Below are positions 3,476 through 8,516 of a DNA stretch of 64,000 nt, in pieces. Origin of the DNA: an uncultured Methylophilaceae bacterium (GTDB lineage Bacteria; Pseudomonadota; Gammaproteobacteria; Burkholderiales; Methylophilaceae). The first letter of the stretch is position 1; each line of letters begins with the position of its first letter. The translations under genes were made by a program, and so were the position numbers. Below the pieces are notes generated by a model. That model was not told the origin of the DNA. It saw nothing but the letters and a program-made list of their open reading frames with translations, and ran no database searches. Location of the stretch: the NCBI GenBank assembly GCA_913009235.1, contig CAJVXS010000001.1:248001-312000 (forward strand), read 5' to 3'.

Positions 3476-4159
3476 GTGACACAAGCAAACAAAAAAATAG
3501 CAACGAAACCAAATCTAAAAGCCGCCATATTCGATATGGATGGTTTGTTAATTGATTCAGAGCACATGATCATGCAGGCCTGCATTGCTGCAGCCAAAGA
3601 AATAGGTATTACTTACACACAAGCAGAGTACGCAGAACTCATTGGCCGCGCTTGGCCCGATGCCACACGCATCATGACCAAGCAACTCGGTGGTGATGAT
3701 AACTTTCAACATGTCATGCATTGCATCAATGCTAGTTTGGATAGTGATGGTAATGTCTTCCCGCTTAAAACAGGCGCGCTAGCCTTGTTAAAGTACTATC
3801 AAGCGAACAATATCATTTGCGGTGTTGCCTCATCTTCGCCCACTAGGCATATTGAGGAGCGCCTAGGCGCAGTCGGTGTGCGCGATTATTTCACGATTGT
3901 CACCAGTGGACACGAAGTCAGAAACGGCAAACCTAACCCCGATATCTACCTGCTAGCCATGGATCGGCTACAGGCCTATGTTACGTTTGCGGTACATGAA
4001 TGTATCGCCTTCGAAGATAGCGAGCCGGGCGCTCGTGCAGCCATTGCCGCGGCATTAGATGTTATCGTCGTCCCAGATTTAAAACAGCCGAGTGACTTTG
4101 TGCGAAAAAATAGCTACGCAGTTGTAGAGAGCTTGGATGTATTTTTGAACGGTTTGTAG
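3476..4159 (+). CDS. HAD-superfamily sugar-phosphatase-like hydrolase
   Basis: 227 residues of the HAD subfamily IA (beta-phosphoglucomutase/hexitol-phosphatase group). Motif I is FDMDGLLIDS (nucleophile D20, general acid D22), motif II is SSS near 120, motif III is GKPNPDIY and motif IV is FEDSEPGARAA. The cap domain is the helical type between motifs I and II. The start is GTG at 3476; no in-frame ATG exists before the catalytic motif and the ribosome site is weak. The substrate is probably a small phosphosugar, but this is family inference only. It is isolated between pqqA and an unrelated kinase. Confidence 0.8.
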   Translation: MTQANKKIATKPNLKAAIFDMDGLLIDSEHMIMQACIAAAKEIGITYTQAEYAELIGRAWPDATRIMTKQLGGDDNFQHVMHCINASLDSDGNVFPLKTGALALLKYYQANNIICGVASSSPTRHIEERLGAVGVRDYFTIVTSGHEVRNGKPNPDIYLLAMDRLQAYVTFAVHECIAFEDSEPGARAAIAAALDVIVVPDLKQPSDFVRKNSYAVVESLDVFLNGL

Positions 4160-4305: not shown

Positions 4306-5199
4306 ATGCTTACCTACCCATTACTCACACCTTTAGAACAAGTCGACCTGCCAAGCTTAACCGCAACACCCACTGCGCTACTGAGCCAGTTTGAGGACAG
4401 CACCCATCAGGCGTTCTTATGTGATACAGCCGATGGGCGCATGGTGTTGAAGGTGTGTGATGAAGTGGCGGTAGCACAATCAGGTTTTTGGCAAGGTGTA
4501 AATCATTTGTTTGGTGCTGACTTTCCGAAGTGTTTAGCGCGGATTCAGCTAACCCATGATTTACTAACTAAGCAAGGTTTGTATGCAGTGCCAGATTTTG
4601 TGGCATCTAACTGTAGTGCGTTTGAGCATGGCTTTGTATTAACGCGCTTTATTGATGGCATTGATATTGACGCCACGCAAGTCCCTGACGCCATGGTGGT
4701 GCAGTTGGCGAAACATGTCGCGCGGTTACATCAACAGACGAAGCCAACTTGGGGTGACTGCCATGCGCCAATGTACCAGGCCGCTGAGTGGGGTGAACGT
4801 TTACAAACGACACTATCAACATTAGCGGAGAAAAGTAATGTAGCGATTCCAGAACCGTTATTACAGGACGTGTTGACGCAGGCTAGTCGGACACAAGAAA
4901 CCATGTTCGTACCGGTGATGTTGGATTTGCGTTGGGATCAATTTAGAAAGATAGGCAATGCACAAGATGATGCATTGGCGTTGATTGATTTAGATGCCTT
5001 TGTAATGGCGCCTCGTTCGTTGGATTTAGTGCTGTTGGCATATATTCTAACGCCGCAACAATTCACTTTGTTTAAAGCGACATATAAGGCGATGCATGAC
5101 TGGCCTGATTACTCAGCGCAGAAGCCATGTTACCAATTACTGTTGTTTTTAATGCGAGTGTTGGGTGAGGCGGATTTAGCGCAATGGATGAAACGGTAA
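4306..5199 (+). CDS. APH-fold (aminoglycoside phosphotransferase/SrkA-like) kinase of unknown substrate
   Basis: 297 residues with the layout of the APH/choline-kinase fold. An N-lobe has a VLKV lysine strand (about 47-51), a hinge LTRFIDGIDI (about 109-118), a catalytic-loop equivalent LDLRWDQF (about 205-212) and a metal-binding strand LIDLDAF (about 226-232). The usual H-G-D-x4-N loop is altered: Asp is kept, but His is replaced and Asn becomes Gln. It may be an unusual small-molecule or protein kinase, or an inactive relative. It lies 16 bp from the convergent stop of pnuC in the thiamine operon, which hints at thiamine metabolism but does not establish it. Confidence 0.6.
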   Translation: MLTYPLLTPLEQVDLPSLTATPTALLSQFEDSTHQAFLCDTADGRMVLKVCDEVAVAQSGFWQGVNHLFGADFPKCLARIQLTHDLLTKQGLYAVPDFVASNCSAFEHGFVLTRFIDGIDIDATQVPDAMVVQLAKHVARLHQQTKPTWGDCHAPMYQAAEWGERLQTTLSTLAEKSNVAIPEPLLQDVLTQASRTQETMFVPVMLDLRWDQFRKIGNAQDDALALIDLDAFVMAPRSLDLVLLAYILTPQQFTLFKATYKAMHDWPDYSAQKPCYQLLLFLMRVLGEADLAQWMKR

Positions 5200-5215
5200 T
5201 CACCCATTCTGCACA

Positions 5216-5860
5216 TTAGACTATTTTTTGTAAGGCTTGAATATAGCGACTGTGCTCTTGTTGCTTATGCAGCTTAACCCAGCTGATATAGCCAGCAACG
5301 GCGAGTATGGTGTTAAGTACAAACAAGGAGGCGGTGGCGTAGTAACTGGTTTCAACATACAACATGACTGCGGCGGCATCGATAACCACCCAGTAGAGCC
5401 AGTTCTGTAGAATCTTCTTAGCGATTAACCAAGTGTTCATTACAGCAAACACCGTTGTGTAAGTATCTAGCGCAGGGCTTTGTGATTGGCCATTTGTCTT
5501 TAAGTAATAAGTGACGGCGGCGCTAATAATAAGGCCAATGATGATAAAGGCTATATTCTTAGGCCATCCCCAGCTGGTAATCGCCAATGTGTCTTCGGAA
5601 TTACCGTGTTTCCTCCACAACCAATAACCATAAACCGCCATGCCAATATAGTAAAAATTAAGTAATGCCTGCATGGGAAGCTGGCCTTCCCAAAACAAGA
5701 TGCTGTAAATTGCCGTGCTGAAAAATGCAAATGGCCAACACCATTGTGACTCTTTTGCAGCGAGCAGAATGTAAGCTACACCCATTAACGCTGCGGCAAT
5801 CTCCCAGCCTGGCATTTGCGCAAAAGCAGCGATTAATGTGTTGAGCATCGTGTTTTCCAT
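5216..5860 (-). CDS. pnuC: PnuC-family vitamin transporter, probably for thiamine (PnuT type)
   Basis: 214 residues, an integral membrane protein with about seven hydrophobic segments and the PnuC signature region (W-rich segments such as WCWPFAFFSTAIYSILFWEG and NWLYWVVIDAAAVMLY). PnuC proteins are facilitators for nicotinamide riboside, riboflavin or thiamine, coupled to later phosphorylation. Because this is the third gene behind a TPP riboswitch, after a TonB receptor and a thiamine-binding-domain protein, thiamine is the likely substrate. It begins 9 nt after the stop of the upstream gene. An inner ATG (MLNTLIAAF, 5848) is an alternative start. Confidence 0.85.
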   Translation of the reverse strand: MENTMLNTLIAAFAQMPGWEIAAALMGVAYILLAAKESQWCWPFAFFSTAIYSILFWEGQLPMQALLNFYYIGMAVYGYWLWRKHGNSEDTLAITSWGWPKNIAFIIIGLIISAAVTYYLKTNGQSQSPALDTYTTVFAVMNTWLIAKKILQNWLYWVVIDAAAVMLYVETSYYATASLFVLNTILAVAGYISWVKLHKQQEHSRYIQALQKIV

Positions 5861-5869
5861 GACGTATGA

Positions 5870-6130
5870 TTATACGTCTACAACATCGGCACGGTCTGTC
5901 CCGATAAATTTTATTGCAAATACACTGTTAGGTAATGCTTCAAATACAGCCTCCATTTCGCGATCAATACAATCCATCACGTCACGATATTCACCAAAGA
6001 CTTGTGTGCTTAAGCTATTTCGTTTAACCACTAATTTTTCATTGGTTTCCAACTGAAGAATAAATTCCAGAATTGGCTCAATATAATCCTCAGTTAAAGG
6101 ATAGAGGCTAATATCTAAAGAAATGCGCAT
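5870..6130 (-). CDS. Small YkoF/MTH1187-type thiamine-binding protein
   Basis: 86 residues starting MRISLDISLYPLTEDYIEPI. The pattern SLYPL...I.P...FI, a central STQVFGEY and a terminal FAIKFIGTDR matches the small ferredoxin-like domain of the YkoF/DUF77 family that binds thiamine or hydroxymethylpyrimidine. A strong ribosome site (AAAGGGA) precedes the ATG. It sits between the TonB receptor and pnuC in the riboswitch-controlled operon. There is no signal peptide, so it should be cytoplasmic and could capture incoming vitamin or sense it. The family call is from pattern memory and should be tested by profile search. Confidence 0.7.
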   Translation of the reverse strand: MRISLDISLYPLTEDYIEPILEFILQLETNEKLVVKRNSLSTQVFGEYRDVMDCIDREMEAVFEALPNSVFAIKFIGTDRADVVDV

Positions 6131-6193
6131 ATCTTATTTCCCTTTAAACTTTTTCAAGCAAGGACATGCATTAAACATGCCCTTGTTAACTGG

Positions 6194-8251
6194 CTAGTAG
6201 TCGTAAGTGACTGTTATGCCGCCGACACGTGGCTGGCCAAGTTGTGTATAAGCTTCTGCTATATAACCTTTGGCTGGGTTGTTACCGAAGAAGAAGCCGC
6301 GAGTGGCATAATCTTTATCCAACAAGTTTTTTGCCCAAATGCTGACTTTCCAGTTTTTATTATGACGGTAATCAGCGCTAGCGTTGACGATGTCGTAAGA
6401 TTTAGAGTCTGCATTATGGCTATCAGAGAAATAGAAGTTATCTTTACCTTCTACATTCGCACGAATTGTCCATGCACTGGTTGGATATAACTCTGCACCT
6501 AAGCTGTAAGTGTAATCTGGCGCATGTGCGACTTGGCGGCCATTATAGCTAACGCCGTTTACTGAGTGATTGTCAAACTCAGCATCCAATATACCTAGTG
6601 AGCCGAGTAGACAGAATTTGTCAGTGACAAACCAATCTAGACTAGCTTCAGCACCTTTGTGTGTTGCATTCGAGGCGTTACCAGTGAAGTCGATAAAGCT
6701 ATGACCAACAGCAATCGAATTCTTAACTTGTGCGTTACGACGGTCGGTATAAAACACAGCAAGCGTTGTTTTTAAACGATCGTTCATCCAGCTTGATTTA
6801 ACGCCTGCTTCTAATGTGACATTGTATTCAGTGTCAAATTCTCGTTGGTTTATGGCTAATGTTGAACCGTTATTCACGCCACCTGATTTATAACCGCGAG
6901 ATAAGCTGGTGTATACTAAGTGTTCCTTATTCGCTTGGTAATTTAACCCCAGTTTGCCACCAATCATGGTGTTGTTTGTATCAATTTTGATTGCACTATT
7001 ATCATCATAATCCGCTTCAAATCGCTCAACCCGTAGACCAGTAATAAACGTCAGTTTGTCAGTGAAGTGAGTATCTAATTGACCATAAACAGATGTGTTT
7101 TTAGTATCGTAGTCACCGTTTAATGGTGCGTCATAAGTATAAGTGCGTAGGAATTCTTCATCCTGACTCAGGTGAAACAAACCGATTGTCCAATCAGTGG
7201 TATCGCCAAAGATACGACCTGCTTTATCTGATAGTGCACGCAATTCGAATGAGAGGTTGTCACGTTCACGTTCATAGAGGTCTGTTGAATCATACCCCCA
7301 GGCATGGTGGCCTGGGAAGGTCCAGTCTTCATCGTAGCCATAAGCGATATTGGAATTGAGAACAGTCGCTTCGACTTGGATAATGACGGCATCAGATGCT
7401 TGCCAGTTTGCTTTTACACCAATGGCATCGGTTTTTTGCTTGTCTTTTCCTGGCTGATCAGCAAGGCTGTTGCGGCTATTATCTAACGTAAATGCATCGT
7501 AACCATTATTGATATTTAAATGCAAATAATTAGCATCGATAGTTAAATTATCAGTTGCCAGTAATTTCAATTTACCACGGAAGGTTAATTCATCTTGATC
7601 TTGCGTATCATCTTTACCCAAGAAGTCATTACCCATGTATCCATCAGATTTATGGGTGTAGAGTGAAGCACGACCTAACAATTTGTCTTCAACAATTGTG
7701 CCGCCAGCAGCAATACCTAAGTTACGTGTATTGTAGTTGGCCAAGCCAGTTTCAACGTGCATATTGAACTCTTTAGTCGGCTCTTTACTACGCAGGGTAA
7801 TTGTACCGGCTAAACCATTGGTACCAAACTTTGTGCCTTGTGGCCCGCGTAATACTTCAACAGATTCGATATCAAACAAAGTGGCAGCGCCACCAGTCCG
7901 GCTGAAATCAATCCCATCAATCACTAAGCCAACAGATGGATTCAATGGTGCGTTAAATTGGCTGCGTTCGCCAATACCGCGAATTTGGTAGTATTGACCA
8001 CGAGATGCGCCGGCAGATACATTCACATTCGGTGCAAGGTTTAATACTTCTTCAAGATGTTGCGCACTACGTGCTACGATGGTTCCCCTGTCAATTTCGG
8101 TCAAACTGACAGGTGTTTCTGCGGCTGTACTAGGGCGGAAATCTGCACTGGAAATTACAGCAGGCACATTAATTGTCAACCCGTCTGCTGCAAAAGCAGG
8201 GCTGGTTAATAAGAGCCCAATTAGCGATAAACGCTTAGTAATGAGTTTCAA
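6194..8251 (-). CDS. TonB-dependent outer-membrane receptor, probably for thiamine
   Basis: 685 residues. The signal peptide is at 1-22 (cleavage after AFA). The plug domain is at about 45-160, with LRGPQGTKFGTNGLAGTI, the usual plug end motif. A 22-strand beta-barrel region ends in an aromatic C-terminus (GGITVTYDY) as needed for outer-membrane insertion. The stretch ETPVSLTEI near residue 45 may serve as TonB box. It is the first gene after a TPP riboswitch, so expression should fall when thiamine pyrophosphate is plentiful, and the ligand is inferred to be thiamine or a derivative. The barrel region resembles generic siderophore/cobalamin-type receptors, so ligand assignment rests on context. 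Confidence 0.85.
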   Translation of the reverse strand: MKLITKRLSLIGLLLTSPAFAADGLTINVPAVISSADFRPSTAAETPVSLTEIDRGTIVARSAQHLEEVLNLAPNVNVSAGASRGQYYQIRGIGERSQFNAPLNPSVGLVIDGIDFSRTGGAATLFDIESVEVLRGPQGTKFGTNGLAGTITLRSKEPTKEFNMHVETGLANYNTRNLGIAAGGTIVEDKLLGRASLYTHKSDGYMGNDFLGKDDTQDQDELTFRGKLKLLATDNLTIDANYLHLNINNGYDAFTLDNSRNSLADQPGKDKQKTDAIGVKANWQASDAVIIQVEATVLNSNIAYGYDEDWTFPGHHAWGYDSTDLYERERDNLSFELRALSDKAGRIFGDTTDWTIGLFHLSQDEEFLRTYTYDAPLNGDYDTKNTSVYGQLDTHFTDKLTFITGLRVERFEADYDDNSAIKIDTNNTMIGGKLGLNYQANKEHLVYTSLSRGYKSGGVNNGSTLAINQREFDTEYNVTLEAGVKSSWMNDRLKTTLAVFYTDRRNAQVKNSIAVGHSFIDFTGNASNATHKGAEASLDWFVTDKFCLLGSLGILDAEFDNHSVNGVSYNGRQVAHAPDYTYSLGAELYPTSAWTIRANVEGKDNFYFSDSHNADSKSYDIVNASADYRHNKNWKVSIWAKNLLDKDYATRGFFFGNNPAKGYIAEAYTQLGQPRVGGITVTYDY

Positions 8252-8374
8252 AGGTCATCCTTTCTATAGATGTATCATAAAAAGGACAGGAGAGATATGC
8301 AGTAGACGTTAGCCATTCTGGATAAACGAAAAAATGAACGGATACCAAACTAAATAGCTACAGTAATAATGCTC

Positions 8375-8461
8375 TGCCTGTCCCTACGCCAGCATTAACT
8401 GGATCAGGTTCATTGGGTCCCTCTGTTAAGAGATCTCAGGCACTTTAAGCCACCCCAAGGC
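8375..8461 (-). ncRNA. TPP riboswitch (THI element)
   Basis: Read on the minus strand, the segment contains both conserved cores: CCTGAGA in the pyrimidine-sensing arm and ACCTGATCCAGTTAATGCTGG (given here in part: ACCTGATC ... GGCGTAGGGA) in the pyrophosphate-sensing arm. P1 closes with GCCT/AGGC at the ends. It lies about 125 nt ahead of the TonB receptor gene. TPP binding should reduce expression, most likely by translation initiation or premature termination; the expression platform between 8252 and 8374 has no obvious U-tract terminator, favouring translational control. Confidence 0.93.
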
Positions 8462-8486
8462 GATTTGATTTTTCAATCAAGCGCGT

Positions 8487-8516
8487 ATTATACGATGATA
8501 TATGGGATTCTGCTAA
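8487..8516 (-). promoter_or_regulatory. Sigma-70-type promoter of the thiamine-uptake operon
   Basis: On the minus strand a perfect TATAAT (8487-8492) is preceded after 18 nt by TTAGCA (8511-8516). Transcription would start around 8480, just before the riboswitch. The -35 differs from consensus at two positions. Confidence 0.55.

Follow-up and report, generated by a model that had tools for sequence, protein, structure and literature searches.

How could a bacterium use PnuT, whose transport is facilitated diffusion, to gather vitamin B1 (thiamine) efficiently and in one direction? The question is raised by a gene cluster in the window, a 64,000-nucleotide stretch of the genome of an uncultured bacterium of the methanol-consuming family Methylophilaceae (GenBank assembly GCA_913009235.1, contig CAJVXS010000001.1, positions 248,001 to 312,000). 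Herein, a thiamine pyrophosphate (TPP) riboswitch, a TonB-dependent outer-membrane receptor, a stand-alone 86-residue protein of the YkoF type and a PnuC-type facilitator are encoded in one operon, on which a gene for a 297-residue protein with the APH kinase fold converges. The reading we favour, at a probability of roughly 0.7, is a TPP-repressed thiamine scavenging module, in which thiamine admitted by the receptor would be equilibrated by PnuT, captured by the YkoF-type protein and trapped by the kinase. According to PMC10881298, many aquatic bacteria cannot make B1 and rely on an outside source, and the present module, if read correctly, makes it testable how facilitated diffusion becomes one-way and efficient at very low substrate levels.

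A riboswitch and three predicted uptake genes on one strand

The operon lies on the minus strand, with transcription running from the TPP riboswitch through the receptor gene and the YkoF-type gene to the PnuC-type gene. The aptamer (RF00059, 8363–8467) was recovered by covariance search along the complete model (positions 1–105 of 105) with 74.1 bits against a gathering score of 54.3 (E 9.8e-13), and it is the sole RF00059 match in the window's own assembly (746 kb, 48% complete). Immediately 5' of it, a consensus scan gives a tentative sigma-70-like promoter site, TTAGCA-18-TATAAT, at 8516–8487; such sites are not enriched in the region, with 11 found against a mean of 10.5 in shuffles. Folding of the riboswitch leader is no stronger than that of shuffled sequences (z −0.18) and an expression platform was not found, so neither a transcriptional nor a translational mechanism is claimed. 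Downstream lies the receptor gene (6194–8251), whose 685-residue product, read from a TTG start, carries Plug and TonB-dependent barrel domains in the Pfam search (PF07715, PF00593) and is predicted from its context to be a thiamine receptor of the OMthi or Omr1 kind.

The last gene of the operon (5216–5860) encodes a 214-residue PnuC-type protein, which exceeds the cut-offs of both PF04973 (156.3 against 27.3 bits, E 9.9e-46) and the TIGR01528 PnuC model (67.5 against 42.45 bits) and matches the solved PnuC structure 4qtn (E 7.2e-7). Its assignment to thiamine (PnuT) rather than to nicotinamide riboside comes from context, namely the TPP riboswitch and, in one campylobacterotal relative described below, neighbouring ThiBPQ genes. 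Altogether, a riboswitch-controlled thiamine uptake operon is a well supported prediction, and thiamine itself would be expected to repress it. The first-pass annotation had placed riboswitch, receptor, YkoF-type protein and facilitator in one operon, and this description is borne out by the profile and covariance matches and by a gene order that is conserved across at least three phyla.

Between receptor and facilitator lies the gene for the 86-residue protein (5870–6130), predicted to be a cytoplasmic thiamine binder. Profile searches place it in the YkoF family, with 31.1 bits against the PF07615 cut-off of 21 (E 3.3e-7), and not above the cut-off of the Thiamine_BP (DUF77) family PF01910 (18.2 against 24.9 bits); thus, of the two profiles that the first-pass annotation named for a check, the first is passed and the second is not, even if a relative in locus L062 passes PF01910 with 34.4 bits. 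AlphaFold2, supplied with 48 sequences, predicts one ferredoxin-like domain of the order E-H-E-E-H-E with a mean pLDDT of 90.1. In a Foldseek comparison, the best solved matches to this model are single-domain DUF77/Thiamine_BP proteins, and structures of Bacillus subtilis YkoF, both thiamine-bound and free, follow from rank 19 onwards with query-normalised TM scores of 0.66–0.74. VIA-align likewise favours TM0486 (Z 12.3) and SP2199 (Z 12.1) over the best unrelated row, a designed protein at 9.6, and B. subtilis YkoF is not among the 50 rows that it lists. TM0486 binds thiamine. The first-pass annotation had staked the thiamine-binding assignment on a fold of this type, and such a fold is what the model gives, nearest to DUF77/Thiamine_BP proteins and then to YkoF.

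Among solved structures, the closest by sequence is YkoF itself, weakly (E 0.0096), and both of its repeats align to the same stretch of the 86-residue protein. The two share the ferredoxin-like fold, PF07615, and an S-L-Y-P stretch followed by an S-T...G stretch in repeat 1 (structures 1s99, 1sbr and 1s7h); unlike B. subtilis YkoF, with its tandem of two ferredoxin-like domains, the window's protein has one. It thus resembles half a YkoF and would probably have to oligomerise to form a YkoF-like unit. The DUF77/Thiamine_BP proteins TM0486 (1vk8), SP2199 (2ibo), MTH1187 (1lxn) and YBL001c (1lxj) share its single-domain fold at Z 9.4–12.3, whereas their identity to it is 14–22% and the window's protein stays under the cut-off of their family. 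Furthermore, B. subtilis YkoF is linked to the YkoEDC transporter, whereas YkoE, YkoC and YkoD are not found beside the window's gene, which has the TonB receptor and PnuC-type genes as neighbours; its constant partner is a PnuC-type facilitator rather than an ABC/ECF transporter.

Recurrence of the gene order across lineages

Conservation of this order was judged by its recurrence across loci rather than by a formal test against chance. A pattern scan of one genome per species, covering 84,980 species, matched 81 stretches, 52 of which were confirmed as loci. Its seeds were seven sequences from Methylophilaceae and one from Sulfurovum, so the 52 loci are biased to close relatives; four of them (L016, L017, L018 and L034) appear to coincide with the family genomes G004, G003, G001 and G039 considered below. 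They span at least three phyla, comprising Methylophilaceae, Methylophaga and other gammaproteobacterial metagenome-assembled genomes, Sulfurovum and other Campylobacterota, Bacteroidetes and one metagenome-assembled genome of Pseudomonadales. A cultured methylotroph, Methylophilus methylotrophus, has the module in its locus L033.

The PnuC-type gene lies directly 3' of the YkoF-type gene in 50 of the 52 loci, and the two open reading frames (ORFs) touch or overlap in 32 of these 50, as judged from mechanically set starts (gap of zero or less). A TonB receptor gene lies 5' of the YkoF-type gene in 46 loci. The script found no receptor in L038, L059, L062, L064, L065 and L066; the stretches for L038 and L059 start 28 and 40 bases ahead of the YkoF-type gene, or at it, and that for L066 stops within the gene. 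In 45 loci the receptor gene has a TPP riboswitch ahead of it, in 44 by script and in L063 by hand, where the script had missed it after setting an ORF start too early. Within the family, the riboswitch is present at all six other loci with the module, and it is present on a Sulfurovum plasmid (L009) as well (7/7). In L063, a fusion of receptor and YkoF-type protein was suspected from overlapping long ORFs and rejected, as the starts at 2810 and 4606 stand in different frames; the overlap arises because the mechanical starts are too long.

In an evenly drawn sample of the class, the YkoF-type gene was found in 12 of 274 genomes, the window's own included. Ten class-wide loci from nine of these twelve carriers were inspected; a PnuC-type gene adjoins in nine and a TPP riboswitch is present in eight, its absence from L136 being due to a stretch that starts within the receptor gene. 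The first-pass annotation had called a stand-alone YkoF-type protein outside an ABC transporter unusual. That it stands alone is confirmed; its rarity is not, since the stand-alone form beside a PnuC-type gene is the rule among these loci and single-domain members of the fold are known, and the separation from ABC transporters is incomplete, as the following locus illustrates.

In the campylobacterotal locus L059, the order YkoF-PnuT-ThiB-ThiP-ThiQ-kinase places ThiBPQ between pnuT and the kinase gene, which ties the gene set to thiamine. Here, ThiB exceeds its equivalog cut-off (350.1 against 317.15 bits), and ThiP and ThiQ are best matches below theirs. The stretch L059:40–4863 thus encodes two ways across the inner membrane for the same vitamin, a PnuC-type protein and the set of ThiB, ThiP and ThiQ.

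The four genes are conserved to different degrees. In the groups defined for this analysis, median identity to the window is highest for the YkoF-type protein both in the Methylophilaceae-like group of 13 loci (81.4%, against 67.3% for the PnuC-type protein, 66.5% for the receptor and 56.7% for the kinase) and in the Methylophaga group of 26 loci (73.3%, against 54.2%, 56.4% and 42.3%, respectively). In six Campylobacterota loci, the YkoF-type protein (49.4%) is no more conserved than the PnuC-type protein (50.0%). The YkoF-type alignment, A2, comprises the window's protein and those of 47 of the 52 loci.

A related arrangement is already known from Bacteroidetes, where an OMthi-pnuT-tnr3 operon stands under a TPP riboswitch (PMC5613172). 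Both systems combine a TPP riboswitch, a TonB receptor, a PnuT facilitator and a thiamine-phosphorylating enzyme, the last being a prediction in the present case. They differ in that the relevant passages of that paper name no YkoF-type protein, and in that its enzyme is Tnr3, a thiamine pyrophosphokinase (TPK), which here is apparently replaced by the APH-fold protein and ThiL. In the literature covered, which leaves key older work outside and so makes an earlier mention possible, no description of a TonB receptor-YkoF-PnuT operon was found. Within the same partial coverage, no link between YkoF and PnuT was found in print, the only co-mention being PnuT in an introduction and YkoF in the title of a reference, and in passages of PMC10881298 and PMC10470507 ykoF and omr1 serve as marker genes separately from each other. 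As far as this literature goes, two things appear to be new: the one-domain YkoF-type protein as a standing operon member, and a convergent clade of APH proteins that are likely thiamine kinases.

The convergent APH-fold gene and the gap in the thiamine pathway

The gene facing the operon (4306–5199, plus strand), which the first-pass annotation had left out of its description of the locus, ends 16 bases from pnuT. Its 297-residue product, a predicted thiamine kinase of a separate clade, passes the APH family PF01636 (30.8 against 23.2 bits) and has no solved relatives by sequence at E values up to 1. Its AlphaFold2 model (pLDDT 93.6) finds its best Foldseek and fold matches among APH enzymes, fructosamine-3-kinase and the choline kinase LicA.

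A relative of this protein is encoded convergently to pnuT in 39 of the 52 loci; in 32 of these, the gene overlaps the pnuT end or lies no more than 60 bases from it, and in the other seven the distance is 549–1260 bases. Seven Campylobacterota loci carry a canonical APH kinase on the same strand instead, in L059 after thiBPQ. The profile used was seeded with seven Methylophilaceae proteins and a Sulfurovum kinase, a seed that helped the Campylobacterota hits. No kinase was found by script in L041 and L062–L066, of which L063 has one of canonical kind by Pfam. In the Bacteroidetes loci L062 (3993–4511) and L064 (6815–7327), a NadR-like kinase (AAA_28) follows YkoF-PnuT. Among the class-wide loci, L138, L140 and L141 carry a kinase of the window's type, and L132, L133 and L135–L137 carry canonical APH kinases on the same strand, which match the ThiK model TIGR02721 with 47.8–92.1 bits against a cut-off of 299.45.

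The window's type of kinase is marked by a rewritten catalytic motif, M-x-D-x-R-W-D-Q followed by D-x-D in place of the canonical H-x-D-x4-N. In alignment A3, made from the window's protein and 34 of the 39 convergent kinases, K49, D207, R209, W210, D211, Q212, D228 and D230 are identical in all 35 sequences. This strict conservation argues for an active, altered site rather than one in decay. With ThiK (YcfN) and other APH kinases the protein shares the APH fold, the catalytic-loop Asp, the following Asp and the Lys, residues whose functional roles are taken from APH enzymes; it differs from ThiK in the motif just described and in showing no detectable sequence kinship.

Whether such a kinase would be needed can be judged from the thiamine pathway in 16 family genomes, where relatives were used to establish gene absence, given that the window's own assembly is 48% complete. 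TPK (PF04263) was found in none of the 16, by a search that was positive in 7 of 14 known control genomes, and the ThiK model likewise matched none; ThiL is present in all. Four genomes, G001 (99% complete), G003 (86%), G004 (90%) and G000 (48%), lack thiC, which the other 12 possess, and the same four lack both ThiE above its cut-off and full-length ThiG, defined as a match of more than 350 bits. A ThiE-like match of 92.3 bits in G004 is below the cut-off, and 11 of the 12 ThiE-bearing genomes have a second match of that kind, or nearly so; counting it, the tally at E values up to 0.001 becomes 13 of 16. ThiG is matched in G001 and G004 by short partial stretches, some of them above the low Pfam cut-off, and with matches of this sort included the tally becomes 14 of 16.

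All four of these genomes carry the module, and the three fairly complete ones appear to depend on B1 from outside. The substrate of ThiL is thiamine monophosphate, which, with neither ThiE nor TPK present, has to come from a thiamine kinase or be imported as such. The module also stands beside thiC in G005, G023 and G039, and thiC is found without the module in G002, which shares the genus of the four genomes above and is 76% complete, and in G050 and G058, which share that of G023. Module and loss of synthesis thus go together in one part of the genus only, and the module probably came first.

That the convergent protein has nothing to do with thiamine and is a chance neighbour is the least improbable of the rival explanations, and still an unlikely one. 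It would account for the opposite strand, the altered motif and the missing ThiK similarity. However, among 100 relatives the protein occurs in exactly the seven genomes (the window's own included) that carry the YkoF-type gene and in none of the other 93; the class sample has six strong hits to the clade, every one in a genome with the YkoF-type gene, and two weak ones (49.3 and 18.4 bits) outside these carriers. Its tight spacing to the pnuT end in most of the convergent loci and the ThiK-like kinases beside PnuT in other lineages speak against coincidence as well, and without it no known enzyme of the carriers would turn thiamine into thiamine phosphate. The 297-residue protein is therefore put forward as the best candidate for a kinase of imported thiamine. 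Such a neighbour also lends weight to the suggestion of the first-pass annotation that the YkoF-type protein might hand thiamine to a kinase.

A proposed route from facilitated diffusion to one-way uptake

The mechanism we infer from the riboswitch, the family assignments, the predicted folds, the gene order, the co-occurrence of the kinase fold and the pathway gap would run as follows. When TPP is scarce, the riboswitch would permit expression of the operon, and the receptor would bring thiamine into the periplasm with TonB energy. PnuT, which transports thiamine in a heterologous host according to PMC5613172, would equilibrate it across the inner membrane, and in the cytoplasm the YkoF-type protein, probably as an oligomer, would bind free thiamine and pass it on. 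The APH-fold protein would then phosphorylate it to thiamine monophosphate, making uptake irreversible, and ThiL would convert the product to TPP. Since a binding protein by itself gives no lasting accumulation, this scheme needs a kinase.

If this is correct, the one-domain thiamine binder would be an overlooked standard part of riboswitch-controlled uptake, the APH-fold protein would be a candidate for the missing thiamine kinase of methylotrophs that have ThiL and neither ThiE nor TPK, and the module would serve as a genetic mark of B1 dependence in such organisms. A bolder version, to which we give a low probability, makes the YkoF-type protein a dedicated PnuT partner docked on the cytoplasmic face, as a relay to the kinase or as a gate, and the APH clade a new thiamine kinase with the rewritten site D-x-R-W-D-Q ... 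D-x-D. With both in place, a passive facilitator would become a B1 pump of high affinity that works in one direction and needs no ATP-driven transporter.

Several observations weigh against the scavenging module as proposed. With regard to the kinase, its gene lies on the opposite strand without direct riboswitch control, and the canonical motif is departed from in the clade, His being replaced mostly by Leu or Pro and Asn by Gln. Kinship to ThiK was sought by sequence and rejected, with no TIGR02721 match at E values up to 1 and an hhalign probability of 0.2% to Escherichia coli ThiK. In addition, the kinase relatives in L138 and L141 fall into no Pfam family at E values up to 0.01, no kinase occurs in the stretch fetched for L041, and the NadR-like kinases of L062 and L064 may act on nicotinamide riboside rather than on thiamine. 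The pathway gap, for its part, is an absence from drafts that are 86–99% complete, on which three genomes agree. With regard to the YkoF-type protein, its PnuC-type partner was not found in the stretch fetched for L065, and a second stand-alone copy in G245 (L139, 5014–5274) has neither a PnuC-type gene nor a riboswitch beside it. PF04973 exceeds its cut-off in 21 of the 100 relatives, only seven of which have the YkoF-type gene; PnuC-type proteins in general do not need the YkoF-type protein, and some of those without it may be ordinary nicotinamide riboside transporters. Finally, a reference title in the literature covered calls YkoF a thiamin/HMP-binding protein, making hydroxymethylpyrimidine (HMP) a possible ligand.

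Two alternatives concern the role of the YkoF-type protein, and both seem slightly less probable than a chance neighbour. GlnK closes the channel AmtB, and by analogy the YkoF-type protein could be a valve that senses cytoplasmic thiamine, docks on PnuT and stops efflux through the bidirectional facilitator. Its tie to PnuT is indeed closer than to any single kinase family, as judged by adjacency and by touching or overlapping ORFs, its identity to the window exceeds that of the other three genes in the Methylophilaceae-like and Methylophaga groups, and the solved PnuC entry 4qtn has three chains. However, the excess of conservation disappears in the six Campylobacterota loci, and the trimer symmetry of PnuC may not match the oligomers of DUF77/YkoF proteins, which are known as dimers or tetramers, not trimers.

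With about the same low probability, the YkoF-type protein could be a general thiamine/HMP buffer or play a part in oxidative stress, of the kind attributed to TM0486, its place in the operon then reflecting co-regulation only. The DUF77/Thiamine_BP proteins that are closest in fold and the copy in G245 without a PnuC-type neighbour fit such a role, whereas the adjoining PnuC-type gene in nearly all of the 52 loci and in nine of the ten class-wide loci does not. A different substrate for the whole module, be it nicotinamide riboside through an ordinary PnuC, a thiamine precursor or thiamine monophosphate, is very improbable: the facilitator does pass the PnuC equivalog model, NadR-like kinases do follow it in L062 and L064, and thiamine monophosphate, if imported, would go to ThiL with no kinase needed, but a TPP riboswitch precedes the receptor in the window, in most of the 52 loci and in the seven family and plasmid loci, ThiBPQ shares one operon with the module in L059, precursors would be useless to carriers without thiE, and import of the phosphate would leave the conserved kinase-fold neighbour unexplained.

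Beyond the scavenging module itself, some loci show its parts in other arrangements. In three genomes of another genus of the family (L095, L096 and L097), a PnuC-type gene is not accompanied by a YkoF-type gene, and a TPP riboswitch lies on the opposite strand at a distance of about 3 kb. In G076 (L107:3350–6962), a TonB receptor gene preceded by a TPP riboswitch lies directly 3' of a PnuC-type gene on the same strand, again without a YkoF-type gene. Seven loci from a set of 13 with PnuC-type genes were checked for a TPP riboswitch, which was present in four. G291 (L138) has two consecutive YkoF-type genes (5129–5377 and 6037–6303) between the TonB receptor gene and pnuT. On the Sulfurovum mangrovi plasmid (L009:5944–8863), the annotation splits both the TonB receptor gene and pnuC into several pieces that overlap, pointing to frameshifts in the record or to decay. 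In the window, a HAD-family phosphatase gene (3476–4159, plus strand) stands directly ahead of the kinase-fold gene and is perhaps part of the neighbourhood; in four of the six other family loci (L010–L013), a related gene is found no further than about 1.5 kb from the kinase gene.

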